Origin: Candidatus Poribacteria bacterium
Lineage (GTDB): Bacteria > Poribacteria > WGA-4E > WGA-3G
Direction of reading: 5' to 3'
DNA length: 36,966 nucleotides
Assembly (NCBI GenBank): GCA_009845545.1
Contig: VXZK01000271.1
Span: 1-36,966, forward strand
Shown: positions 256 to 29,983 of the stretch, in pieces
Position numbering within the stretch: position 1 is the stretch's first letter
Layout of the letters: every line of letters starts with the position of its first letter
Made by a program: the position numbers and the translations under genes
The notes under the pieces: model-generated
The model's input: only the letters and a program-made list of their open reading frames with translations
Database searches by the model: none
What the model was told of the DNA's origin: nothing

Positions 256-675
256 ATGCCACTCAAAATCGCTAATAAAAAGCGTGATTACCGAACAACA
301 AACAAAACGGTATATAGCTGTCAATATCACGTGATTTGGTGTACGAAATATCGCCGTAAGGTTTTGGATACACAGATACAAGGTCGTCTCAAGCAACTCA
401 TCCGTGAAAAACAGGACGAGTATGGTTACCAAATCGCAGAAGTTGAAACTCAAGCTGAACATGTCCATTTGCTGATAGAGATACCACCCACGGATTCTAT
501 AGACAAAATCGTTGGAAAAATCAAAAGTTACAGTTCAAAGATTTTGCGAGAAGAGTATCCAAGTTTGAAAAGCCGTTTGCCGTCCCTGTGGACGCGTTCA
601 AAGTTTGTAAGTTCCTGTGGTGGTGTAACGCTTCAAGTCATAAAAGACTATATTGAAGCTCAAAGTGGACAATGA
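256..675 (+). CDS. tnpA: IS200/IS605 transposase TnpA (Y1 HUH)
   Basis: This is a 139-residue single-domain transposase, the normal length for the family. It excises and inserts the element as single-stranded circular DNA through a 5'-phosphotyrosine intermediate. Visible motifs are the N-terminal HVIWCTKYRRKVL strand, the HUH metal-binding motif in HVHLLIEIPP near residues 71-80, and the nucleophilic Tyr in VIKDYIEAQ near residue 132. The start at 256 is supported by AAAGG nine bases upstream and a strong promoter. The stop overlaps the tnpB start (ATGA at 672-675), so the two are translationally coupled. All catalytic residues are present, so I expect a functional protein. Confidence 0.95.
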   Translation: MPLKIANKKRDYRTTNKTVYSCQYHVIWCTKYRRKVLDTQIQGRLKQLIREKQDEYGYQIAEVETQAEHVHLLIEIPPTDSIDKIVGKIKSYSSKILREEYPSLKSRLPSLWTRSKFVSSCGGVTLQVIKDYIEAQSGQ

Positions 676-1784
676 GAAAATCCTCGAAGTTCAAACTTCA
701 AAATCAATCTAACACCATCAAAATCGGCAATATGCTTGACGATATGTGGCAGATTCATGTGCATATCATGCTGTTGGCTCGTAGGTATTATCGCCTTTTT
801 GGTAAAAATCTCTCTACCTATCGCTTGAAGGCACACGTTGCGAAACTTAAAAAACGAACCCAACCACATTGGAAAGACCTACCGAGTCAAGTTCTGCAAG
901 ACGTTGTGCTACGCTATGGCAAATCTCAAGACGCGTTTCTTGGTAACATAAAAGACCGTAAAGCAGGTTTGACGACGCGTAAAGTCGGTAGACCGAAAAT
1001 CAAATCGCGTCAGAAATATAGTTCTCTGACGTTCACACAAGCGGGCTACACACTTGAAGACAATCGTATCAAAATCAACTGCATAGATACATGGTTCTCT
1101 TTTCACAAACACCGCGAAATCAAAGGAAATATCAAGACGATCACAATCAAACGCGATAAGTGCGGCGACTATTGGATATGCTTTTCGTGTGAGAATGTTG
1201 ACGCTTCCGAACCCAAAGCCAAGACGGGTAAGAGCGCAGGATTTGATTACGGAAACAAAACATTCCTCACAAGCGACGAAGGCAACAAAATAGAATCTCC
1301 GCAGTTTTTTAAACAATCACTCAGCACTTTACGCTCCCTGAGCAAAGCACTGAGTCGTAAAGTCAAAGGTTCTAACAACTATTATCGTGCGTGCCGCGCT
1401 TTGGCAAGACACTATAGAAAAGTTGCCCGCCAACGCGAAGATTGGCAATGGAAACTTGCGACTCAACTTTGCACAGAGTTTGACATACTCTGCTTTGAGA
1501 CGCTGAATCTTGATGGTATGAAACGCCTTTGGGGACGTAAAGTTTCTGACCATGCCTTCTACCAGTTTTTGCAGATATTGGAGCAGAAGTGTGCCAAACA
1601 CGGCAAAACACTCAAACGCGTAGGACGCTGGACAGCAACGACAAAGCCTTGCAGTGATTGTGGATCCCATAACAAAGACCTCTCTCTTTCTGATAGGCAG
1701 TGGACGTGTCCCGAATGTGCTTCCCACCACGATAGAGACGTAAACGCTGCAATCAATATCAAACGGGCGGGCTTGGCCGCCTAA
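672..1784 (+). CDS. tnpB: TnpB RNA-guided nuclease (OrfB)
   Basis: This 370-residue protein belongs to the TnpB family, the transposon-encoded ancestors of Cas12. They cut DNA next to a transposon-associated motif, guided by an RNA from the element's right end. The three RuvC-like acidic positions are visible: Asp in SAGFDYGNKTF (about residue 192), Glu in CFETLNLDGM (about 276) and Asp in HDRDVNAAINIKR near the C-terminus. Before the last motif is a zinc ribbon with CSDCG and CPEC pairs. Length and motif order are complete, so it is probably active rather than decayed. It is coupled to tnpA by the ATGA overlap. Its product would help retain the element at the donor site. Confidence 0.95.
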   Translation: MRKSSKFKLQNQSNTIKIGNMLDDMWQIHVHIMLLARRYYRLFGKNLSTYRLKAHVAKLKKRTQPHWKDLPSQVLQDVVLRYGKSQDAFLGNIKDRKAGLTTRKVGRPKIKSRQKYSSLTFTQAGYTLEDNRIKINCIDTWFSFHKHREIKGNIKTITIKRDKCGDYWICFSCENVDASEPKAKTGKSAGFDYGNKTFLTSDEGNKIESPQFFKQSLSTLRSLSKALSRKVKGSNNYYRACRALARHYRKVARQREDWQWKLATQLCTEFDILCFETLNLDGMKRLWGRKVSDHAFYQFLQILEQKCAKHGKTLKRVGRWTATTKPCSDCGSHNKDLSLSDRQWTCPECASHHDRDVNAAINIKRAGLAA

Positions 1785-7211: not shown

Positions 7212-8037
7212 ATTGATTCCAAGTGCTTTGCGAATGGCAACCCCCTTAGGTTGCGCCGCACTCGGCGGGATTTATTCGGAGCGCGCTGGGGTAATTAACC
7301 TCGCCTTAGAAGGGATGATGTTGATCGGGGCTTTTGGCTACATCGTCGGAACACAAGGCTCTGGATCAACGTGGATTGGGTTGCTTGTCGGCATCAGTTG
7401 TGGGATGGCGACGGCTCTGTTACATGCTGTTGCAACAGTTACATTTCAGGCGGAACAAGTTGTCACCGGGATAGGCATCAACATTTTGGCGTTAGGAATT
7501 ACAGAATATCTCTCGCCTCCACCTGAACAAGTAGGCGGACTGCCACACTGGCAGCTGCCGCTTATCGGTTCATACAATTTCATCGTCTATCTACTACCAA
7601 TATTGATGGTAGCGAGCCACATCTTTCTGTTCAAAACGCCCTGGGGCTTGCGATTGCGGGCAGCAGGCGAATCAACGGAAGCACTCGCGGCACTGAGTCT
7701 AAGCCGATCAAAATGGCAATATCTTGGGATATTGTTAAGCGGACTTTTGGCGGGGACAGGTGGGTGTTTCCTTGCATCTGAAGTTCACTATTTTACAAAA
7801 GGAATGACCGCTGGACGCGGTTATCTGGCACTCGCTGCTGTCATCTTTGGGAACTGGCGACCCTTAAGCGGCGTATCGGCGTGCTTTCTCTTTGGATTCG
7901 CCACTGCCTTAGAGCTCACAAACCGATGGAACATTCCCGGACAACTGCTACACAGTCTGCCCTATATTTTAACAATGGTCGTTCTCATCGGGTTCGTAGG
8001 GACATCGCGTCCACCCGCGAGCTTGGGAAAGATATAG
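7201..8037 (+). CDS. ABC transporter permease, nucleoside/simple-sugar type (NupQ/YufQ-like)
   Basis: A 278-residue inner-membrane permease and heterodimer partner of the preceding protein. The N-terminal motif GGIYSERAGVINLALEGMML is diagnostic for the second permease of Bmp-type nucleoside importers. A coupling-loop sequence, LRAAGESTEALAALSLS, is also present. The ATG at 7201 has AAGG seven bases upstream and lies inside the end of the upstream gene, so translation is coupled. About eight membrane segments are evident. Transported compounds in the family include purine and pyrimidine nucleosides; the exact substrate is not readable here. It converges with the minus-strand gene ending at 8084. 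Confidence 0.88.
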   Translation: MIFELIPSALRMATPLGCAALGGIYSERAGVINLALEGMMLIGAFGYIVGTQGSGSTWIGLLVGISCGMATALLHAVATVTFQAEQVVTGIGINILALGITEYLSPPPEQVGGLPHWQLPLIGSYNFIVYLLPILMVASHIFLFKTPWGLRLRAAGESTEALAALSLSRSKWQYLGILLSGLLAGTGGCFLASEVHYFTKGMTAGRGYLALAAVIFGNWRPLSGVSACFLFGFATALELTNRWNIPGQLLHSLPYILTMVVLIGFVGTSRPPASLGKI

Positions 8038-8083
8038 TCGTAGACTTTTAAACATCACTGCGTAAAAGAAACATATTTACCTC

Positions 8084-8872
8084 CTATTGTAAACCTAAAA
8101 ATTGGTAAGGATCGTATCCTTCTGTATGAGCATCTATGAAAGTAATACCGGTCGGGATGCGTTCATATCGCATCACATCTACAACGTTGATATCTTCATC
8201 AGATTGCCCAAAAAACGAAGCGGGGAGCCGAACTGTGCCATTTCGGCGCTCTATCCAGTTCTCAACGTACATAACATTTTGATAGATCGGGTAAACCTTG
8301 CCATTGTGGTCTCGTCGTGTCACCGCAATGAAACTCTGATCGCCTTGGTTCCAAAGTTTGATGAGAACACGATGCATCAACTCAAAGTCTATCTCTTTAC
8401 TCGCGAGCCTTGCTCTCTTTTCATCCGACCATGTCCATATAGGCATAAGATGTTCGGGGAAACCATGTGGTACTTCCGGATACGCTCCAAAGCCAAAGGG
8501 TGAGACCGGCACTTCGTTGGTTCCTTCTGTTGACAGTATTTCATGAACTAAAAAAGCGTCCAACAACTCATCACTCTCTGCTTCGTTGCTCGGTAAGGTC
8601 TCCCACTCCTCAGTCATCGGCTGCGTGTCATTGAAAACAATAGGCGTTTCCGATGTATCAGATGTATAGGTATCAATCGGAACGTCAGCGTTCGTAGCAG
8701 GACGTTTTTTTTCTGTTTCTTCGAGTGCCCGCACCATCTGCCTTGTCCGTTCTAACTCGGCTTCACCGGTCCGTCGGACGTGCCAATAGTAGAGTTGGGT
8801 TCCGCCGACAACCATGCCGAAGAAAATGATTCCTATGAGGATCACTCTGCTTGAAAAAATATCGCGTAACAT
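8084..8872 (-). CDS. Membrane-anchored protein of unknown function
   Basis: I do not recognise a family. From the ATG at 8872 the product is 262 residues: a short positive N-terminus, one membrane segment (about residues 7-26, VILIGIIFFGMVVGG), then a charged helical stretch rich in Glu, Lys and Arg. An acidic Thr-rich linker follows, and then a folded-looking C-terminal half with many aromatic residues (MPIWTWSDEKRARLASK, QNVMYVENWIERR). The start was chosen because AGGTGA lies about seven bases upstream and the membrane anchor begins immediately. The reading frame is open as far as 9070, but the extra residues have no ribosome site. It is likely a single-gene unit between the permease operon and the polysaccharide genes. 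Confidence 0.7.
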   Translation of the reverse strand: MLRDIFSSRVILIGIIFFGMVVGGTQLYYWHVRRTGEAELERTRQMVRALEETEKKRPATNADVPIDTYTSDTSETPIVFNDTQPMTEEWETLPSNEAESDELLDAFLVHEILSTEGTNEVPVSPFGFGAYPEVPHGFPEHLMPIWTWSDEKRARLASKEIDFELMHRVLIKLWNQGDQSFIAVTRRDHNGKVYPIYQNVMYVENWIERRNGTVRLPASFFGQSDEDINVVDVMRYERIPTGITFIDAHTEGYDPYQFLGLQ

Positions 8873-20023: not shown

Positions 20024-20054
20024 GGTGTTCCGAAAAAATAGAGAAGGAGTTCTT

Positions 20055-22028
20055 ATGACGAAACGCACGCAGCTCGCCCCTGCGAAACGCGCAATTATTA
20101 TCGGCATGGATGGAGCAAGCATGGAGCTGGTTAAGAATATGATTGACTGGGGACATACCCCGAACATGGCGAAATTGCTCCAAACAGGAGTCTACCGTCC
20201 GATGATCGGCGTATTTCCGACATTGACACCTCCCGGATGGACAGCACTCTCAACAGGTTCCTGGCCCGGGACACATCAGGTCATGGATTTTAATATTCGG
20301 GCTGTCGGGGAACGGCTTGACAAAACGGTATGGGGTATTAACACAGGACTGTGCCAATCCGAATACTTATGGAATCTTGTAGAACGTGCCGGCGGCAAAC
20401 CGATTTTAGTGAAATGGGAAATGTCCTGGCCCCCCACTGTCAAGACTGGTATTCAGGTGGAGGGCACAGGACCAGGGGTCTCCAACCACCATCAGATTGC
20501 CGGGTATCACCTCTTTGTCGCCGGAAAATGGGCACCGCGTCCTATTGGTGGACAACGCGACCCGGAAACCCTTGATCCGAGCGCATTACAGAAAGTACGA
20601 CATATTGATCCTGTTACGATTGAAGCCGTTGACAATGAGAAATGGAGTGATTTGCCTGATTCCACTGAACCGGCGCAGGAGGTTGCGCTGACGATCCGAC
20701 CCCTGGCACGCGGCAGAGAAGATGTGATGCCTTCAGTCTACTCCGAGAGCGAAGCCTCCGACGCTTCTCAACAAAAAGTTGGGCGTGTTCCAAAACCGTT
20801 TTACGGATTGATTTACGCCTCCGGCGACACGGGTTACGACCGAGTGAGGATTTGCAAGAGCCGATCTGGAGCAGATAGCGTCGCCGATCTGGGTGTCGGT
20901 GAATGGAGCGAATGGTGGTTAGATAGTTTTGAAATTGACGGTAACAATGCAGAGGGTTACGTCCGCATGAAACTTGTGACGCTCACATCAACGGCTGATG
21001 CTTTTGAACTCTTTGTGCCACAAATCTGGCCCAGAGTCGGATATACCGTCCCGGATACAGTCGCCACGACGATTGATACGGAAATCGGTTCGTTCCTCCA
21101 AAACCCGGCGCGCGATGCCCTCGGACAAATGGACGACGACACCTATTTTGAAGTCTTAGATTACCACCACCAACGTCTCGCAGATGTTGCGACACACCTT
21201 GCTCAGAACAACGATTGGGACGTTTTAATGGTAGAGAGCCACGCGCCGGACTATGCCAGCCACTTCTTCCTTAGCCAAGCGGATGAGATCAGCGGCGCAC
21301 CACCGGAAACAATCCATCGGTGCCGTGAAGGGTTACGGCGCACTTATGAATCCGTTGATCGGATGATTGGGCGTGTCGTGGAATGCGCTGATGACGATAC
21401 AGTTGTCCTCGTCTGTGCCGACCACGGCGGGACCCCGAACCAATTTCGTGCCGTGGATATTGAATCGGTCTTGGCAGAGACAGGGTTTATTGTCAAAGAT
21501 GCAAACGGGGAAATAGATTGGACAAAAACACGGGCTGTTAATGTCGGATTAGTGCATATCTTCATTAACTTAGCCGGACGTGAACCGGAAGGGATTGTCG
21601 CTCCTGAGGACTATGAGGCAACACAACGGGAAATCATCGCAGCATTGCATACTTACAAGGATGCCAAAACTGGACGGCATCCGTTCACTTTAGCCGTCAC
21701 GCGTGCAGATGCTGAGATGTTTAACCTACAAGGCGAATTAGTCGGTGATGTGGTCTATGCACTGCGCCCCGAATTCGATGGCGCGCACGGTAAGCAGTTG
21801 CCTTCCGTGAGTTTCGGTATCGGCGGCCAGCACTCTACATTTATTTTATCGGGGGCTGGCGTTCGGCAAGGCGTTGCGTTGGAACGGCAGGTTCGCGTTG
21901 TCGATGTTGCCCCGACACTCTGCTATCTACTCGGACTTCCAATGCCTGATAGGGTAGAGGGCGGTGTCGTTTACGAGGCATTAACGGATCCGAATTGGCA
22001 TTTGACAGCACTCACAGATTTAGAGTAG
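20055..22028 (+). CDS. Type I phosphodiesterase / nucleotide pyrophosphatase family protein (alkaline phosphatase superfamily)
   Basis: About 657 residues. N-terminal AIIIGMDGAS gives the first metal Asp, and FPTLTPPGWTALSTGSW holds the Thr nucleophile of the family. The later metal ligands are visible in ESHAPDYASHFF and VCADHGG, and in GIGGQHSTF near the C-terminus, so two-metal catalysis on phosphate or phosphonate esters is expected. A domain of about 150 residues is inserted between the nucleophile and the second ligand set. The ATG at 20055 follows AAGGAG by five bases. There is no signal peptide, so it is probably cytoplasmic. The true substrate cannot be inferred. Phosphoglycerate mutase and sulfatases share the fold, but the motifs fit phosphodiesterases best. 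Confidence 0.85.
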   Translation: MTKRTQLAPAKRAIIIGMDGASMELVKNMIDWGHTPNMAKLLQTGVYRPMIGVFPTLTPPGWTALSTGSWPGTHQVMDFNIRAVGERLDKTVWGINTGLCQSEYLWNLVERAGGKPILVKWEMSWPPTVKTGIQVEGTGPGVSNHHQIAGYHLFVAGKWAPRPIGGQRDPETLDPSALQKVRHIDPVTIEAVDNEKWSDLPDSTEPAQEVALTIRPLARGREDVMPSVYSESEASDASQQKVGRVPKPFYGLIYASGDTGYDRVRICKSRSGADSVADLGVGEWSEWWLDSFEIDGNNAEGYVRMKLVTLTSTADAFELFVPQIWPRVGYTVPDTVATTIDTEIGSFLQNPARDALGQMDDDTYFEVLDYHHQRLADVATHLAQNNDWDVLMVESHAPDYASHFFLSQADEISGAPPETIHRCREGLRRTYESVDRMIGRVVECADDDTVVLVCADHGGTPNQFRAVDIESVLAETGFIVKDANGEIDWTKTRAVNVGLVHIFINLAGREPEGIVAPEDYEATQREIIAALHTYKDAKTGRHPFTLAVTRADAEMFNLQGELVGDVVYALRPEFDGAHGKQLPSVSFGIGGQHSTFILSGAGVRQGVALERQVRVVDVAPTLCYLLGLPMPDRVEGGVVYEALTDPNWHLTALTDLE

Positions 22029-22056
22029 TTTTGACTTACACATTCTGCTTTAAAGT

Positions 22057-22080
22057 CCCCCTGATAAGGGGATTTAGGGG
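22057..22080. repeat. CCCCC/GGGG hairpin between convergent genes
   Basis: CCCCC at 22057-22061 pairs with GGGG at 22068-22071 or with a second GGGG at 22077-22080, followed by TTTATTT. It sits in the 72-base gap between two converging genes, so it may serve as a bidirectional terminator. It also resembles dispersed intergenic repeats seen in many bacteria. Confidence 0.45.
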
Positions 22081-22100
22081 TTTATTTGCGTAAGTGCCGA

Positions 22101-22802
22101 TTAAATCTTGTCGGATATTTTATACTTCAGCATGAAATGGATGTGCCGCGCTGCATCTCTAATGGGTTTAAGTTTTGACTCGCCTGCACGATGGTAGTAG
22201 TTGATAGGAATTTCAAGAATTTTTAAGTTTGCTTGCACCGCTTTGATGACCATTTCCGACGCGAATTCCATGCCAGTTGTTTGTAATGCCATGCGTGTGT
22301 ATGCCTCCTCCGTGAAGGAACGCATCCCGCAGTGTGAGTCGGAGATTGAGGTTCCGAAAAGCCAACGCAGAATACCGGATAGGATAGGGTTGCCGATGTA
22401 GCGGCGCGCCCAAGGCATCGCACCCGGTAGCATCTCCCTCTTGAACCGATTTCCCATTACCAAATCAAACCCTTCGTGTAAAGGGATAATGAAACGTCCC
22501 AGGTCTGTAAAATCATAAGTATCGTCGGCATCGCCCATGACGATAAACTTGCCTTGTGCAGCGGCGAAACCTGCAAGATACGCCGCACCATAACCGCGCA
22601 GCGGTTGATGCACCACACGCACACCGAAACACTCGGCAATAGCGACAGATTCATCAGTGGATCCGTTATCTGCAACGACCACCTCACCTTGAACCCCTAA
22701 AGTGTTTAGGGCACGTTGTGCCTTCTCAATGCATGTGCCGAGTGTTTCTTGCTCGTTGAGACACGGCATCACGACAGAGACCTCAATGCTTTGATTTTTC
22801 AT
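22101..22802 (-). CDS. GT2 glycosyltransferase, polyprenyl/dolichyl-phosphate sugar synthase-like (Dpm1-like)
   Basis: This 233-residue enzyme has the GT-A fold of family 2: VSVVMPCLNEQETLGTCI at the N-terminus, the nucleotide-binding DNGSTDES, the metal-binding GDADDTYDFTD, and SDSHCGMRSFTEEAY later. The short length without C-terminal membrane helices is like soluble Dpm1. Such enzymes move a hexose from a nucleotide sugar to a polyprenyl phosphate carrier. The ATG overlaps the STT3 stop (ATGA, 22799-22802) and has GGAG eight bases upstream, so the two proteins are made together. That pairing suggests it makes the lipid-linked donor or an extending sugar for the oligosaccharyltransferase. 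Confidence 0.88.
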   Translation of the reverse strand: MKNQSIEVSVVMPCLNEQETLGTCIEKAQRALNTLGVQGEVVVADNGSTDESVAIAECFGVRVVHQPLRGYGAAYLAGFAAAQGKFIVMGDADDTYDFTDLGRFIIPLHEGFDLVMGNRFKREMLPGAMPWARRYIGNPILSGILRWLFGTSISDSHCGMRSFTEEAYTRMALQTTGMEFASEMVIKAVQANLKILEIPINYYHRAGESKLKPIRDAARHIHFMLKYKISDKI

Positions 22803-25210
22803 TGCGTTGACTCCAGTTCGGTTGCGAGATATTTCTCATCCGTTTTGATATCAGGTGGATAGCGAATCTCCCATACTTTCACTTTGGCATCGGTAGCATT
22901 ACTTGTTGGATAGACACGGATAAACGCCTCGCTATGTTGGCCTCGTAGAAACAACTTAACAGCGAGGCTATTCCAACCAAGAGACGGAATATAATAAGCC
23001 TTGTCAAGGGTTGCCTTGGAGTCAAAGTCTAAAACGACACCGCCATTTTCAATATCTACCGTTTGTAAAGATGGTTTATCGGAATTTACAGAGATCTCTT
23101 GGAATATGTTACGATGCGTTTTAAGATGAACAGCAACAACTATCTTTTGTTGTGTACCAGCTACAACATGTGCATGAGTGCCGGGGCTCCGGACAGGTGT
23201 CTTTGAAACCATGTCAATAAATGCCAGAGGGGTTCCGCCCCATTTGGGTCGTATTTGGTAGGGTGCCCCGATGGGTGTCTCTGTAGACTTGAGCTCATAA
23301 AATCTAAAACGCCTATCATCTTTTTGATTACTGCCGATGAATGAGAAATTTTTGGATTGAGATGTTACGCCGTGCTTTGTTAGCATTAGGTGTGTGGCAC
23401 CGTGGGTTTTTAGGAATTCGAGTGCTTCTTTCTCGTCTTGTGCACAGAAGACATGTCTATAATAGAGGTGTACCCAATGCGGAATGAAATGGTCTGAATC
23501 TGTGATAGTTTTAACACCGGCGAGAACATTAAGCTGCGTTCCATATCCCCAGTTTGCTGCGATAACGGCGTTTTGTGGAAGTGTGTCTTTCATCCATACT
23601 AAGGTTTGTGTGAGGCTTTCATCTTTGCCCGGTGAAGGTTTCTGCATATTGGCGGCAGCGTGAATGGCGCGATTCGCGTGCCCACCGATCGGGTTCCAGA
23701 AGCCAACAAATAGTAACACAACGATGGCAAAATAGGCAGCAGTCCGTTGTTCATTGACTTGGTGGTAAAGAATCTCCGCATCTTTGAGTTTTTGTATAAG
23801 TGAAGCAGTACAAAACAAAAGGAGTGATACAGTGCCGTAAGCAAGTGGCACACCAATGAAGAAGTCATAACGTTTTCCACCACGTGCAAGTGCCACCCAC
23901 AGCAGAAACCAGACCAGCATAACAAGCATCATCTGTTCATTTTTGGAGGTATCATGCCGTAGCGTTGTGATGCCCACCGCAATGAGGGTCATAACTAAGG
24001 CGGTGAAGAAGAGGGTATTGCATAGGTTTGTACCGATAAGACCATTTACCGGTTCGCGAAAGAAAGTTGCTCCAACAAATAGAGACAGCGAGAGTGCCAA
24101 AGGGATCCCTTCCCATTTCCACAACTGGATGCTTCCTATGATGAACCCGATACTACCTAACACAAACACCGCACCATATCGATGTTTCCAATATCCGAAT
24201 TTTGGGTCGGCTAACTCACCAATATCCGCCATCAGTCGGCTTTCACGAAACGGGAACGCGGTGCTAGCGAAAGTATCAACTTGGGAAAAAATATAGTAAA
24301 TCCCTGTGGCGACAGCAAGAAGTGTTAATCCCCATGCAAGCTTCCGAGCATGGGCACCGACAGACTTAACATACAAGAGGAGCAAATACCGCATCCCACG
24401 TAGTGCTAAAATCGCTAGCGGTGGAAGAAGTGTAAGAGCAGCAATATGTGTAGAGAAGCCATATCCGCTCCGATAAGCAGGACTCATGAGATAAAGCCAC
24501 GGCACAAACATGAGTATCCAAAGAACGTATTCTTTTAAATTATGTTCCGTGTCTGTGGTACAGAACGTCCAGAGTTCTATAGAAAGGATGATTAAAAGAA
24601 AAAAGCCGAAGCCCTCCCAACTCATACCACCTAAAAAGACGATAAATCCGGAGAGTGCGGCTACAAGGTATCTACGCTGTCCGGATTCTATCTGCGTCTT
24701 CCAAAGGTAACTTGTGACAGCAAGTACGCCGATCATCCAACACCACGCGTCTCTATCTCCGAAGCCGGCGGCACTACGCTCAATACTTCCAGGGAGGGTT
24801 GCCAAAAGCACACCAACGATAGATGCAAAGAGGAGACCGTGAGCGCGTGCAAGAAAAAGAAAAAGTACACCGAGTCCAAGCGTGAAACAGATGACAGGAA
24901 AGTAGAGTTGGAGCTCATAAAGAGGCGCCCACGGGAGCAATTTGTGGGTGTAGGCGATGGCATAAGCGTAGAGCGAGAGGAGTTGTCCATTATCTCTACC
25001 GTCTGGTAGCCAACGGAACATATCACGTTCCGGGAGAGTACCCTGCTCCTCAATAATTTGTGCCTGCCAATAGTAGAGATAGGCATCATGTCCAGCAAAT
25101 TGTCCTTCTGGAAAACGTTCTGCCCCTTGGACGCGTATCCAGAAGGTAAGGATTAGAATACTGAGCAAAGCGACACCAACGCAGAGACGTTTGACAAGTG
25201 GATTTCTCAT
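22799..25210 (-). CDS. STT3-type oligosaccharyltransferase-like membrane protein (AglB/PglB-like)
   Basis: 803 residues: about 13 membrane helices up to residue 505, then a soluble C-terminal region, the layout of STT3/AglB/PglB, which transfer a lipid-linked glycan to Asn of secreted proteins. GHDAYLYYWQA supplies the loop-1 Asp (D42). AGFGDRDAWCWM gives the DxD pair D152/D154. DIGELADP around E332 is in the position of the TIxE/SVSE loop. RYDFF near residue 449 is in the position of the sequon-contacting Arg region. Where the family has WWDYG, this protein has NWGYG (553-557), losing one Trp and the Asp. I am confident of the fold but less so of Asn specificity. The gene begins four bases after the frameshifted membrane protein and overlaps the GT2 gene. 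Confidence 0.8.
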   Translation of the reverse strand: MRNPLVKRLCVGVALLSILILTFWIRVQGAERFPEGQFAGHDAYLYYWQAQIIEEQGTLPERDMFRWLPDGRDNGQLLSLYAYAIAYTHKLLPWAPLYELQLYFPVICFTLGLGVLFLFLARAHGLLFASIVGVLLATLPGSIERSAAGFGDRDAWCWMIGVLAVTSYLWKTQIESGQRRYLVAALSGFIVFLGGMSWEGFGFFLLIILSIELWTFCTTDTEHNLKEYVLWILMFVPWLYLMSPAYRSGYGFSTHIAALTLLPPLAILALRGMRYLLLLYVKSVGAHARKLAWGLTLLAVATGIYYIFSQVDTFASTAFPFRESRLMADIGELADPKFGYWKHRYGAVFVLGSIGFIIGSIQLWKWEGIPLALSLSLFVGATFFREPVNGLIGTNLCNTLFFTALVMTLIAVGITTLRHDTSKNEQMMLVMLVWFLLWVALARGGKRYDFFIGVPLAYGTVSLLLFCTASLIQKLKDAEILYHQVNEQRTAAYFAIVVLLFVGFWNPIGGHANRAIHAAANMQKPSPGKDESLTQTLVWMKDTLPQNAVIAANWGYGTQLNVLAGVKTITDSDHFIPHWVHLYYRHVFCAQDEKEALEFLKTHGATHLMLTKHGVTSQSKNFSFIGSNQKDDRRFRFYELKSTETPIGAPYQIRPKWGGTPLAFIDMVSKTPVRSPGTHAHVVAGTQQKIVVAVHLKTHRNIFQEISVNSDKPSLQTVDIENGGVVLDFDSKATLDKAYYIPSLGWNSLAVKLFLRGQHSEAFIRVYPTSNATDAKVKVWEIRYPPDIKTDEKYLATELESTQ

Positions 25211-25214
25211 AAAA

Positions 25215-25607
25215 CTACAACCCTAACTCTCGACGGAGTTGACTCATCACCTGATTTGCAGTTTCACTGCCCCATTGTTGGATAAAATACGCCTTCGCTT
25301 CGGAGAGGATATCTTCTACAATTTCACGCGGGATTAGTGAAAAGACTGCGTTAATTTCAGCAAACATCTCAGGCTGCGCGCGCTGCACACGTTCTAAAAG
25401 TGCCTGCTGCGATTCGGCAGTTGGATATGCTTCAAAGAAGTCTTCCTTCGTCATGGTAGAGATTTCTAAGAGTTCAGGATATTTTTCTGCAAACCTGCGA
25501 TCCAAGTCTTCCAAGGTTTCCATGACCGTTGTTACCCATTCTTCAATTTCCTCATCTGAAAGTGATGAATCTTCAGGTGCTGGCGAGGTATCGTTTGCGG
25601 TATCCAC
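25215..25607 (-). CDS. C-terminal part of a frameshifted membrane protein
   Basis: From GTG 25607 the reading frame gives 130 residues: an acidic Ser/Pro-rich start (SPAPEDSSLSDEEIEEW), then an all-helical domain ending SQLRRELGL. No ribosome site precedes the GTG, and a stop codon lies four codons upstream in this frame. The previous frame runs over it by 76 bases with a tail of unlike composition. One added base in the C5 run just upstream, or a -1 ribosomal slip on CCC, would join both into one protein of about 225 residues. I therefore read this as the second half of one gene rather than an independent one. No family recognised. Confidence 0.6.
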   Translation of the reverse strand: MDTANDTSPAPEDSSLSDEEIEEWVTTVMETLEDLDRRFAEKYPELLEISTMTKEDFFEAYPTAESQQALLERVQRAQPEMFAEINAVFSLIPREIVEDILSEAKAYFIQQWGSETANQVMSQLRRELGL

Positions 25608-25891
25608 GAGGGGGTTTCAGTCGGCAAAGTCTCCGCGTCATGACTCTGATCCTGCGGTGGATGGTTATGCCCAGCATGTGGGTCTTCAACCGGTGGAACC
25701 TCGGTGGGTACTGCCTTAACACTTTGTGATTTCGCAGCGGTTGCACGATTTGAATATGGCGTTGTGGTTTTGTAAATCTTAATCGGTTCTGGTGCTGGTT
25801 TATTTTTTTCGTGAATATAGAATGTGACACCGACTGAAAGTATCAGGAAAACAGAAAACGTCACTATTCTTCCCGTTACAGTTCTGAGCAT
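25532..25891 (-). CDS. N-terminal part of a frameshifted membrane protein with His-rich segment
   Basis: The ATG at 25891 is preceded by AAGGAG at seven bases, whereas the ATG two codons earlier is too close. The product begins with a membrane anchor (IVTFSVFLILSVGVTFYI), then a Pro-rich extracytoplasmic linker with a His-rich patch, HAGHNHPPQDQSHD, which could bind metal. After LPTETP the frame continues into about 25 residues (SWIPQTIPRQHLK and on) whose composition looks like out-of-frame translation before a stop at 25532. It most likely continues natively into the frame of the gene ending at 25215. The whole unit would be a single-pass protein encoded directly before the STT3 gene. Confidence 0.6.
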   Translation of the reverse strand: MLRTVTGRIVTFSVFLILSVGVTFYIHEKNKPAPEPIKIYKTTTPYSNRATAAKSQSVKAVPTEVPPVEDPHAGHNHPPQDQSHDAETLPTETPSWIPQTIPRQHLKIHHFQMRKLKNG

Positions 25892-25965
25892 AAGCATTCT
25901 CCTTATTGCGTATTAAGAGATCTCATCTGTCAAGTAAGTAAGCCGGAGGGAACGGTTTCCGTTTA

Positions 25966-26433
25966 TCAGCGGTCGGTCTGTGTCTCTAGTCCCTTCAGTT
26001 GCCTAGGAGGAACGCTACAGATACCATCTCCGTGTAAAGGTGCTTCAGACTTGGGTGTCCCATCTTCATCAGGAGGACAGTCATAATACATCTTACCGCA
26101 GATTGTGCATTCAACAAGGTGTGGATGGGATAGGTTTAGACGCGGACAACCCCAAAAGGACGTTCCACATCTTTTGCATTGCGCTTTATGGGAATCACTA
26201 TTGTTAAATCCTACATGTCCACCACATTTATTAGGACATCGAACAGCGTTTACAGCCCAGAATGCCCCTGGGATTGCGATCATTAACCCGAAACATATCC
26301 CGATTATTACTTCCATAGTTTCTTTGTTTTTTGGCAGACGTTTTATCCTTTCTCCTAATAAAAAGAATTGTTGAACCCACGTTTTGGGCAGTTTCATAAC
26401 GAATAGAATTAAGTTGTGAGTCTGTGTTTTCAT
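25966..26433 (-). CDS. Membrane-anchored zinc-ribbon-like Cys-rich protein
   Basis: About 155 residues from ATG 26433 (AGGA nine bases upstream). The N-terminal third is basic, followed by one membrane segment (VIIGICFGLMIAIPGAFWAV). The rest has Cys pairs spaced like zinc ribbons: CPNKCGGH, CKRCGTSFWGC and CTICGKMYYDC. An acidic PPDEDG follows, and the sequence ends near HGDGICSVPP. No named family comes to mind. The next protein upstream has the same plan and also ends with HGDGIC, so the two look like diverged tandem duplicates. If the anchor is N-in, the Cys domain would be outside the cytoplasm. The function is unknown. Confidence 0.65.
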   Translation of the reverse strand: MKTQTHNLILFVMKLPKTWVQQFFLLGERIKRLPKNKETMEVIIGICFGLMIAIPGAFWAVNAVRCPNKCGGHVGFNNSDSHKAQCKRCGTSFWGCPRLNLSHPHLVECTICGKMYYDCPPDEDGTPKSEAPLHGDGICSVPPRQLKGLETQTDR

Positions 26434-26524
26434 AATTGTTTTCCTGCATGTTAGTTTGAGGAAGTGGGACGTTCGATAAAAGAACGCCCCGACTGCGCCT
26501 TGAGTAGCACAAGTGTATTTCCAT

Positions 26525-26977
26525 TTATCCAGAACTACTGTTCCCACTAGACGAGTTATTATTGCATATCCCGTCCCCGTGTTCATCTTCTTCTATACAA
26601 GGACTGTACTCGTCAGGACAATAATCGCAGGATTGTGGGCCATGGGGTGCCCAAATCTCCTCGATGTTATCAGCCCCAGCGCATGTATAAAGTGCATCAT
26701 TACAGCGACCGCATAACGCTTGATGAGAAGTGTAGTAATAACGGGGACATTGATAGGACTTTATTGGACAATTGCCGCAAGTATCAAGATGATCCGTTTC
26801 TCGCCCTTGATCGCAATAGTCACACCTACCATCATTGTATATCCACATTGTAACAACTACCGTTACCCCAGCAACGATGAGGGTTCCAACGGCAACAGCT
26901 GTTAATACTGCTGCCTCGGATTCTTGGGGCATATACAACAGCGGAATAAACAATGCAAAGACCAGCAGCAAAACCAT
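26525..26977 (-). CDS. Membrane-anchored Cys-rich protein, relative of the downstream gene
   Basis: From ATG 26977 this gives 150 residues: two adjacent hydrophobic segments (VLLLVFALFIPLLYMP and VLTAVAVGTLIVAGVTVVVTMWI), then a Cys-rich domain with CDYCDQG, CGNCPIKSYQC, CGRCNDALYTC and CDYCPDEYSPC. It ends with HGDGIC followed by an Asn/Ser-rich tail. There are twelve or more Cys in pairs, which suggests several bound zinc ions or disulfides. The ribosome site before 26977 is poor. The frame stays open 21 codons further to an AAGGAG at 27045-27050, where no ATG, GTG or TTG is found. The true start may therefore be upstream at an unusual codon. Confidence 0.6.
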   Translation of the reverse strand: MVLLLVFALFIPLLYMPQESEAAVLTAVAVGTLIVAGVTVVVTMWIYNDGRCDYCDQGRETDHLDTCGNCPIKSYQCPRYYYTSHQALCGRCNDALYTCAGADNIEEIWAPHGPQSCDYCPDEYSPCIEEDEHGDGICNNNSSSGNSSSG

Positions 26978-27045
26978 CAGATACCGGCTTGCCTTCTGAA
27001 CGATAAACCAATTAGAATCTAAAGTTGGTGTAAAAAATATATTTC

Positions 27046-27067
27046 TCCTTTCCGATTTCCGAAAGGA
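27046..27067. repeat. Hairpin upstream of the Cys-rich gene
   Basis: TCCTTTC at 27046-27052 and GAAAGGA at 27061-27067 are perfect arms with an 8-base loop. On the minus strand the second arm of the hairpin carries an AAGGAG ribosome-site-like sequence, so folding would hide it. Confidence 0.45.
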
Positions 27068-27120
27068 AATCAGAGTGAATATAAGAGAAAACCACCTTAA
27101 CGTTTTCTCTCTGGTTATTC

Positions 27121-27155
27121 ATAGGAGACACGGTTTATGTTAACATGTCTCCTAT
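27121..27155. repeat. Ten-base perfect inverted repeat with palindromic loop
   Basis: ATAGGAGACA at 27121-27130 and TGTCTCCTAT at 27146-27155. The 15-base loop ends in a further palindrome, ATGTTAACAT (27137-27146). There is no T-run on either side, so it is better read as a protein-binding or element-end site than a terminator. Confidence 0.5.
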
Positions 27156-27501
27156 ATTGTTGTCAACTACAATTGATGCGCGCATTTCAGGCGCGCCACC
27201 GCTTCAAGCCGAGTGCCATAAGGATTTCTCCGCTTGGAATGCTTATAAGCGTTCGATAAAAAATACACGCGTGTTTTCATGCGTATGACTTCTCCAGCGA
27301 TCAGCACCACCCCTTTCCGTCCCTCCACGCTTTCTGTTGCTTTCTTGAATCTATATGTTGGTTTCTGGGCAGCAAAACAGATAAGCTGCCAGCATAGCAG
27401 GGCAGCAGCAGAACAAAAATACCCTCTGAGCGGCCACACAATGTAGCATACTGAGAGGGTTCGTTGATTTGTATGGAGATGGAAATATTTGTGTAAATTT
27501 G

Positions 27502-27530
27502 TCCGGTGTTGCGTTGAAAGGCACACCGGA
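27502..27530. repeat. Eight-base perfect inverted repeat (hairpin)
   Basis: TCCGGTGT at 27502-27509 and ACACCGGA at 27523-27530, with a 13-base loop. It is the most GC-rich stem in this stretch. Confidence 0.45.
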
Positions 27531-27743
27531 AGCAGTATGAATATACTTAACGTTTGTTGGGGGGGAGGAGGGTAATGCTTGGTCGTTTCATAAGAGATAA
27601 CGATACGTCAACACGCCGGGAGCACAAGGCGATTAATACTTGGCTTGGTGTGGGGCAGATCAGACTATTCGTATTGGATCGTCGATTCATCGTTATCTTT
27701 ACCTCTTGCTTCACTAACAACAGAAAATGCAGTTCATCATAAG

Positions 27744-27763
27744 ACATGTTCACATTAACATGT
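27744..27763. promoter_or_regulatory. Operator-like palindrome
   Basis: ACATGTT-N6-AACATGT, perfect 7-base arms, at 27744-27763. The spacing suits a dimeric helix-turn-helix regulator. One half-site (AACATGT) recurs at 27142-27148 within the other large inverted repeat of this stretch. Confidence 0.4.
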
Positions 27764-27851
27764 AAAATTACCCTTCTGGCGAGGGCACTATTTTAATTAT
27801 ACACTCCGAAAAAAGATTTGTCAAATTAAATTTTGAGAATCATAGGTGCTG

Positions 27852-29690
27852 CTATAAACATTTGCCGATGTCGTGTTTTTCGCGCAATTCTTCAAGCGTA
27901 TAGGTGTTGATGACATCGGTTTTTGTGAGCCAACCTCGACGGGCAACATTTAAGCCAGAGTGTCGGTGTGCCAGTTGTCGAATAGCATGGGCATCGGTAT
28001 TGACAGATAGTAGCACACCCGCGTCTTTTGCCATCCGCACAAACTGAGGGTCCAAATCCAATCGACTCGGTGATCCGTTAATCTCCAAAACTGTCCCATT
28101 TTCTGCAGCAGCTGCAATGACTTCCTCAAGATTCAGCGGATAGCCAAGTCTGTGCCCGAGCATCCTGCCTGTCGGATGACCGATGATATTGACAAATGGA
28201 TTCTCAATTGCGCGGACGATGCGTTTTGTCATTTCTACTTCGGTGAGATTGAAATGACTATGGACACTTGCAACAACAATATCAAGCTGCGCTAAAATCT
28301 CATCGGGAAAATCCAGAGTGCCGGACCGCCGAATATCGACTTCAGAACCTGCAAGGACTGTCATACCCTCAATCTCAGCATCTAATTCACGAACTTGCTT
28401 CACTTGTTCAAGGAGTCGTTTCTGATCCAAACCGTTTGCAACGGTGGAAGAGACCGAATGGTCGGTAATAGCGAAGTATTCAAGACCTTCTGCTTTTGCT
28501 GCCGCTACTATCTCTTGAAGTGTATTCCGTCCGTCACTTGAGTCAGTATGTGCGTGTAAGTCGCCTCGCAAGTCGGCAAATTCAACGAGATCCGGTAAGG
28601 TATTGTCTTTAGCCGCCGTGACTGAGGTGCTATCTTGTCGAAGTTCAGGTGGAATATAGGAGAGTTCGAGTGCTTCGTAAATTTCCGCTTCTGTGATACC
28701 GTGTTTAGCCGTTCGCGGGGAAGGACAATCAGGTAGTGCGTCAAAGTGGGCATCTGCTGGTGTCGTTAAAAATAGGGTTAGTTCGTACCTGGCAGCGGTG
28801 CAGAGATAGATAGAGACTGGAAAATCTTGGTCAATATAGAATTGAATTACGGGGAGTATATCTCGGACATCATCCGTCGGTTCGTCTTGACTTTTTTCAA
28901 TGAGAGATGCACTGTTGCTGTCATATAGGTACTGGGTTTGATCGCCTGCTTTGAAAACTATTTGTGTTTGCGAAAAGGATTCAAGAAACGCTTGCAGCGA
29001 ATCAGGAACGACACCTTTCTCAAACTGAAACGCTGACGCGTCCTGACACTCAACAATCAATTCTATACCTTGACAGATCTCTTCGTGTCGCCGTAAATGT
29101 CCCGTGAATTCGGGTTCCCGTTTTATCCATCCAAATTGTGCTAAGTTCTCGGAAATCCGCTGTGCGATCGGTAAAACAGCCCATAGTGGGCGTGCTTTGC
29201 GAAGCTGCATCCGAAACGCCAAACTCTCAGTTATCATCTGAAGGGTCTTCTTTCCGATCCCCTTCAAACCTCTCATCTTTCCGCTCTCCAGCAACGTCTG
29301 GAGGTCCTCAAGATTCCGCACACCGAGTTCCTGATAGAATCTACCGACAGTCTTCACACCGACACCTCGAAGTTCAAGCACTTCAAGTATCCCTGTCCCC
29401 ATCTCCGCTGTGAGGTCATCATAGTATTTGCAGCGTCCGGTTTCCAGCATCTCAACGGTTTTGTCTTGGATAGCTTTCCCGATGCCGGGTGTCGCTCGGA
29501 GCTGTTCGACTGCACTCTTATTGTAATCGGGGGTATTCTGTTCAGGAGCTTCAGCAGATAGTTCGTATGGAAAGTCTTCGATTATATCGGCTGCGCGCGC
29601 ATAAATCCTTGCGCGAAATGCATCGTCACCTCGGATTTGGAGGAGGGATCCAATGGCCCTGAACACATCACTAATCTCACGATTTGTCAT
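27852..29690 (-). CDS. polX: PolX-type protein: HhH and degenerate polymerase domain plus intact PHP nuclease domain
   Basis: About 612 residues with the domain order of bacterial PolX, a base-excision-repair polymerase with a 3'-5' exonuclease. An N-terminal 8-kDa-like region is followed by helix-hairpin-helix motifs (LRATPGIGKAI, LRGVGVKTVGRF, LKGIGKKT) and a palm region near residue 200. The C-terminal PHP domain keeps its metal ligands: GDLHAHTDSSDG, AITDHS, GSEVDI, VASVHSHF, IIGHPTGR and NTDAHA. In the palm, where active enzymes have GS-x-RR-G then DxD, this reads GHLRRHEEICQGIELIVE, so both catalytic aspartates are gone. The start is ATG 29690 with AAGG upstream. I expect a nuclease or phosphatase without polymerase activity. 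Confidence 0.85.
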   Translation of the reverse strand: MTNREISDVFRAIGSLLQIRGDDAFRARIYARAADIIEDFPYELSAEAPEQNTPDYNKSAVEQLRATPGIGKAIQDKTVEMLETGRCKYYDDLTAEMGTGILEVLELRGVGVKTVGRFYQELGVRNLEDLQTLLESGKMRGLKGIGKKTLQMITESLAFRMQLRKARPLWAVLPIAQRISENLAQFGWIKREPEFTGHLRRHEEICQGIELIVECQDASAFQFEKGVVPDSLQAFLESFSQTQIVFKAGDQTQYLYDSNSASLIEKSQDEPTDDVRDILPVIQFYIDQDFPVSIYLCTAARYELTLFLTTPADAHFDALPDCPSPRTAKHGITEAEIYEALELSYIPPELRQDSTSVTAAKDNTLPDLVEFADLRGDLHAHTDSSDGRNTLQEIVAAAKAEGLEYFAITDHSVSSTVANGLDQKRLLEQVKQVRELDAEIEGMTVLAGSEVDIRRSGTLDFPDEILAQLDIVVASVHSHFNLTEVEMTKRIVRAIENPFVNIIGHPTGRMLGHRLGYPLNLEEVIAAAAENGTVLEINGSPSRLDLDPQFVRMAKDAGVLLSVNTDAHAIRQLAHRHSGLNVARRGWLTKTDVINTYTLEELREKHDIGKCL

Positions 29691-29983
29691 TTTCAACGAC
29701 CTTTTCTATAAAGAAATAAATAGTATTTAGCGGTCCCGCCAGGTTTCTGAGAAAGCAAACAAAACCTAAACAGAAACTTTGAAGTCTTCAAAAATCTCTT
29801 TAGTCCCGTAGGGACACAATGTTTATAGAAAGTATTTGAAAGAAATATTCAGCTGGCACGGCTCCTCAAAAGGTCGCAATATATCGTCTTTGACGATCAG
29901 TACCTTGGGGACATAGATTTGGGCGAGTACGCTGCAAAACTGAACCTTTCGGGCTTGGGGATACGCTATAGAATGCAAAACTG
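29691..29983. other. Intergenic spacer with GTCCCGTAGGGAC palindrome
   Basis: About 290 bases with no gene. The palindrome GTCCCGTAGGGAC at 29803-29815, followed by ACAATGTTTATAGAAA, looks like a dispersed intergenic repeat; the sequence is familiar from other genomes, but I cannot count copies here. The spacer separates ftsX from polX on the same strand and may also hold the polX promoter. Confidence 0.45.

Follow-up and report, generated by a model that had tools for sequence, protein, structure and literature searches.

The window, meaning the whole stretch of 36,966 nucleotides analyzed here, belongs to a 5.57 Mb assembly in 401 contigs of a Candidatus Poribacteria bacterium, a group of sponge symbionts. 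Its minus strand carries an open reading frame (22799-25210, as placed in an earlier note on this DNA) for an STT3-type oligosaccharyltransferase (OST) homolog of 803 amino acids, P0001. The gene is part of a cassette (22029-27851), which lies between a phosphodiesterase gene (20025-22028) and a PolX gene (27852-29696). The cassette consists of a structured leader, genes for small secreted and membrane-anchored proteins, STT3 and an AglJ-like GT2, all on the minus strand of the window. The small proteins comprise a Cys-rich secreted or anchored protein (26525-26977) with the tail CNNNSSSGNSSSG, which contains NxS sequons, and a Cys-rich membrane-anchored protein (25966-26433), both candidate acceptors, and a single-pass membrane-anchored protein of the PIKIYK type (25215-25897), a candidate acceptor or adaptor. 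The C-terminal end of the first cassette gene is NNNSSSGNSSSG. A frameshift at about 25600 breaks the PIKIYK gene in two, at the end of a CCCCC run, which may be a sequencing error or real decay; its ortholog at another locus is intact (L156, 2635-3339; 227-234 aa). Elsewhere in the window (256-1784, plus strand) a 139-aa protein, which we take by eye to resemble an IS200/IS605-type transposase, is followed by a 370-aa open reading frame.

The GT2 gene (22101-22802) overlaps the end of STT3. Its product is of the polyprenyl-phosphate-hexose synthase-like AglJ/DPMS type, with 96 bits for PF00535 and a match to the DPMS structure 5mlz (E 2.4e-16); 144 bits for TIGR04182 (AglJ), under the curated cut-off of 325, indicate a relative and not a member of that family. 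The likeness to AglJ and dolichol-phosphate mannose synthase would be consistent with loading of a polyprenol carrier.

The STT3/PglB/AglB layout claimed in the earlier note was borne out. P0001 scored 30.7 bits with the Pfam STT3 model PF02516, above the curated cut-off of 24.5, while its 58 bits with archaeosortase-associated STT3 (TIGR04154) were far below the cut-off of 450 and do not make it a member there. An AlphaFold2 model built from 69 own and related sequences (pLDDT 90.5, pTM 0.90) had the multi-TM domain and C-terminal periplasmic domain of OSTs, and its best Foldseek matches in the PDB were all OSTs, with Archaeoglobus fulgidus AglB first (7e9s, E 3.5e-17, 13% identity), followed by human STT3A, PglB and yeast STT3. 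The family profile also matched STT3A in the PDB (E 7e-18). DPY19 and ArnT were weaker; the closest non-OST, the C-mannosyltransferase DPY19 (E 6.5e-9), ranked behind every full-length N-OST match. DPY19 shares a related GT-C fold and differs from N-OSTs in acceptor chemistry. Placement in another GT-C family, named beforehand as refuting, was thus ruled out. P0001 is a member of the STT3/AglB/PglB (GT-C) superfamily that lacks the WWDYG motif of canonical N-OSTs.

The acidic active-site positions listed in the earlier note are present: D42 (25085-25087), the equivalent of PglB D56 in EL1; D152 and D154 of D152-R-D154 (24749-24757), equivalent to the metal site D154/D(E)156 of PglB; and E332 (24215-24217), equivalent to the glutamate of the EL5 TIXE motif (PglB E319). 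In 59 relatives of over 38% identity, D42, R145, D152, D154, E332, R447 and D571 are 100% invariant, and E332 is so in all 69 alignment rows. In solved enzymes the amide of the acceptor Asn is sandwiched by D56 and E319, with the metal site (PMC7226087). Because the counterparts of both residues, D42 and E332, are invariant, an Asn amide is favored as the acceptor and transfer to lipid, which the earlier note had considered, is not.

At the canonical position of WWDYG the protein has NWGYG (residues 553-557; 23540-23554). In a profile of 69 relatives the block AAxWxYGxQLN lined up position by position with the WWDYGYQI of STT3 from yeast and human, which confirms the proposed replacement and the loss of the first Trp and of the Asp that contact the +2 residue. 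A WWDYG elsewhere in the C-terminal domain, the other finding named as refuting, was searched for in protein and genome and was absent: the 803 residues contain no second WWDYG, and the 14-base word encoding every WWDYG (TGGTGGGAYTAYGG) was not found anywhere in the assembled genome. The word was found in four of nine comparison genomes, with five matches. An ortholog from another species, 86% identical, has the same NWGYG. Given the profile alignment, the genome devoid of the WWDYG word and the shared motif of the ortholog, the change is neither misalignment nor chance. The DK/MI motif, on the kinked helix of the second pocket half, was not found by sequence, where the alignment stops short of the region; the family includes short forms of about 675 aa without residues 613-751.

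In solved enzymes the Asp of WWD and the indole groups of its Trp residues hydrogen-bond the +2 Ser/Thr (PMC7226087). After random mutagenesis of Campylobacter jejuni PglB the motif was called strictly conserved, and the single substitutions W457S, W458R/C and D459V, among others, were inactive (PMC3527161). These data count against the explanation that we prefer below.

The earlier note was right that P0001 deviates, yet incomplete in describing one deviant protein, since many motif versions occur among about twenty paralogs in exchangeable cassettes. The assembly gave 30 STT3 matches, fragments counted apart, and at least 18 paralogs have a readable motif. These 18 copies show 16 different strings; W occupies position 1 in none and D position 3 in only four. 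Among the 59 relatives the motif is x-W-x-x-G in 41 different strings, in which position 1 is taken by N, H, D, S, T, P, R or another residue, in no case W, and position 3 by G, S, N, D, I, E, P or further residues; the middle W and last G vary hardly or not at all. A tree of 102 sequences was built with the motif columns excluded, and on it positions 1 to 5 required minimally 33, 2, 34, 29 and 0 changes. All canonical or near-canonical proteins (WWDYG, WWDHG, WWHYG) belong to one distant clade of Poribacteria with 13 rows. Judged from these sequences, canonical WWDYG survives only in this separate clade.

In ortholog pairs the drift of the motif columns was no different from that of entropy-matched columns, and special clade-wise conservation or switching of the motif is unsupported against them. 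Thus the diversity alone does not prove selection for specificity, and the lack of an independent sign of such selection speaks against our preferred explanation. P0001 may instead be an ordinary N-OST that still modifies N-X-S/T, its motif having drifted under relaxed constraint because dedicated substrates are presented by proximity; backbone contacts, the glutamate motif of EL5 and W554, the Trp that is left, would then suffice. The near-invariance of the middle Trp and last Gly, the evolution of the motif columns like other variable columns and the canonical sequons beside non-canonical enzymes (NNNSSSGNSSSG in the window, GNSSGNNSSGCNST in a related cassette described below) agree with this. 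We nevertheless regard it as unlikely in view of the strict conservation described for WWDYG and the inactive PglB mutants (PMC3527161), and overall no enrichment of sequon-rich tails was seen.

Within one genus the number of copies differs strongly, with 10, 3 and 2 matches in single-contig genomes and none in others. In the genome of the window at least ten copies have an open frame of full length, while the remaining ones are cut by contig ends or contain stops or frameshifts. Remnant, frameshifted or stop-interrupted copies were seen at L101 (around 8024-8597), L097, L085 and L088; such copies suggest birth-and-death turnover. No match was found among plasmid records. The interrupted copies, together with the frameshifted partner gene beside P0001, could be taken to mean that the paralogs are decaying, non-functional relics. 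This is highly improbable and largely refuted by the open full-length copies and by the catalytic residues, because neutral decay would not leave them 100% invariant in 59 proteins.

The genes upstream of STT3 often encode single-pass membrane-anchored or small secreted proteins. One N-terminal TM was predicted for the gene directly upstream in 43 of 77 STT3 genes compared with 206 of 730 in the background (Fisher p 2e-6, with orthologs that are not independent and gene calls from our own script). On the downstream side a GT2 (18 paralogs) or a CDP-alcohol phosphatidyltransferase (21) is frequent, in some cases together with a methyltransferase. A protein cluster with weak similarity to T2SS protein C accompanies 23 STT3 paralogs (L093 6485-6955, L068 10442-10954 and others). 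Sigma-54-activator-like ATPase genes, judged by eye and some of them broken, recur beside the cassettes (L152 4565-5439; L156 37-996; L086 312-1334 and 7547-8662).

Small secreted proteins upstream of STT3 bear repetitive tails such as GTGDCGTGDC, SGGCDSGGCD, NDEENDEENDE and NSSGSNSSGSNSSG (L045 6412-7075; L040 7086-7815; L087 744-1269; L089 5209-5989). Generic low-complexity tails were more frequent near STT3 (5 vs 0, p 0.03). For sequon-rich NSS or Cys/Gly/Ser-type GSC tails the association was suggestive and the enrichment not significant, and within candidate substrates Ser/Thr at +2 of N-X-S/T was only weakly enriched (154 observed vs about 132 expected); both results weigh against our preferred explanation. 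Several cassettes have Cys/Ser/Gly/Asp tails without Asn, e.g. GTGDCGTGDC or SGSCDSGSCG. Combined with the loss of W1 and D3, such tails would fit a re-use of the STT3 fold for a non-Asn acceptor (Ser, Cys or other) or a lipid. We consider this quite improbable, because D42 and E332, which activate the carboxamide, are as invariant as the metal site, N-OSTs come first among the fold matches, and the tail association is not significant.

The conserved leader (27036-27173 or, taken more widely, 27010-27173) contains a promoter-like site TTGACA-18-TAACAT (27166-27137) and a 12-bp inverted repeat (27155-27121). By blastn, copies of 78-87% identity were found to precede another four or five cassettes, including those of L062 (NWPHG) and L078 (NWNYG), while an nhmmer search gave no matches. 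The leader RNA folds well into three hairpins (z -4.9); six sequences showed no compensatory changes, and Rfam contained no match. The TCTCCT of the repeat could alternatively pair with the Shine-Dalgarno sequence AGGAGA in a switch-like manner.

The junction itself was compared among relatives. In seven genomes (G005, G021, G017, G001, G007, G009 and G010) the phosphodiesterase and PolX genes are direct neighbors with about 34-109 bp between them, and the cassette is absent. It is present at the junction in the window and, on the phosphodiesterase side, in G006. G020 has a different version of the cassette at the same junction. There the leader is kept (85.9% over 142 bp), as are GT2 and the final ~90 bp of STT3 (about 85% nucleotide identity). 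On the other hand, the small-protein genes are unrelated, with no nucleotide match to those of the window, and STT3 is 67% identical in nucleotides and has the motif HWDYG; this version includes GNSSGNNSSGCNST, a canonical sequon. Because both were replaced while leader and GT2 were kept, the exchange of STT3 is linked with that of the upstream small-protein genes. This linked exchange, observed at one locus pair, is the main support for dedicated substrates.

With moderate confidence we propose that P0001 is a single-subunit OST with a changed +2 pocket, which is dedicated to the proteins of its own cassette and uses Asn as acceptor and a GT2-loaded carrier. A polyprenol-linked sugar would be the donor, with the neighboring AglJ/DPMS-like GT2 as the probable loader of its first sugar, and the sugar would be transferred in the periplasm to the Asn amide of the small proteins, both the secreted Cys-rich and the membrane-anchored ones. 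The residues that activate the amide and bind the metal are kept, while the pocket that reads +2 in other enzymes (Trp-Trp-Asp) lacks its first Trp and its Asp. Because hardly any two paralogs have the same altered pocket, the enzymes probably each recognize an acceptor sequence of their own, or choose their substrates by proximity, and would not read a universal N-X-S/T. Against this proposal, the small proteins may be adaptors or cargo with no relation to the enzyme, the DK/MI half of the pocket was not located, and the swap was seen at a single locus pair.

AglB of A. fulgidus (7e9s/5gmy) is the best structural match and shares the catalytic acids, and the AglJ-like GT2 next to P0001 adds to the likeness; unlike AglB, the window enzyme is bacterial, has NWGYG for WWDYG and belongs to many paralogs per genome in exchangeable cassettes. 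PglB of Campylobacter lari and C. jejuni, one general enzyme per genome, is likewise a single-subunit bacterial OST whose D56, R147, D154, D156 and E319 have equivalents in P0001. It differs in having MXXI and WWDYG, the mutation of which inactivates it (PMC3527161). Multiple paralogs in one genome are also known as AglB-L, S1 and S2 of A. fulgidus, but all three retain WWDYG and have pockets of one type. According to a proposed rule, a single pocket type is common to all OST paralogs of an organism (PMC3703281); as regards the motif, the paralogs in the genome of the window do not seem to follow it. Among the papers searched, none mentions Poribacteria together with oligosaccharyltransferases.

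The motif diversity among the copies suggests custom-made protein glycosylation and not one general system. Tentatively, Poribacteria may possess a diversifying repertoire of dedicated OSTs, with the pocket rewritten paralog by paralog and each enzyme inherited and exchanged with its own acceptors as a cassette, which would create many parallel non-N-X-S/T codes per cell. The N-X-S/T sequon has its structural basis in WWDYG, a motif described as strictly conserved in N-OSTs. A natural family with intact catalysis and tens of pocket versions would be a ready-made experiment on the determinants of the sequon and might supply OSTs of novel acceptor specificity. It would also be evidence for a symbiont that diversifies its surface glycoproteins via cassette exchange.
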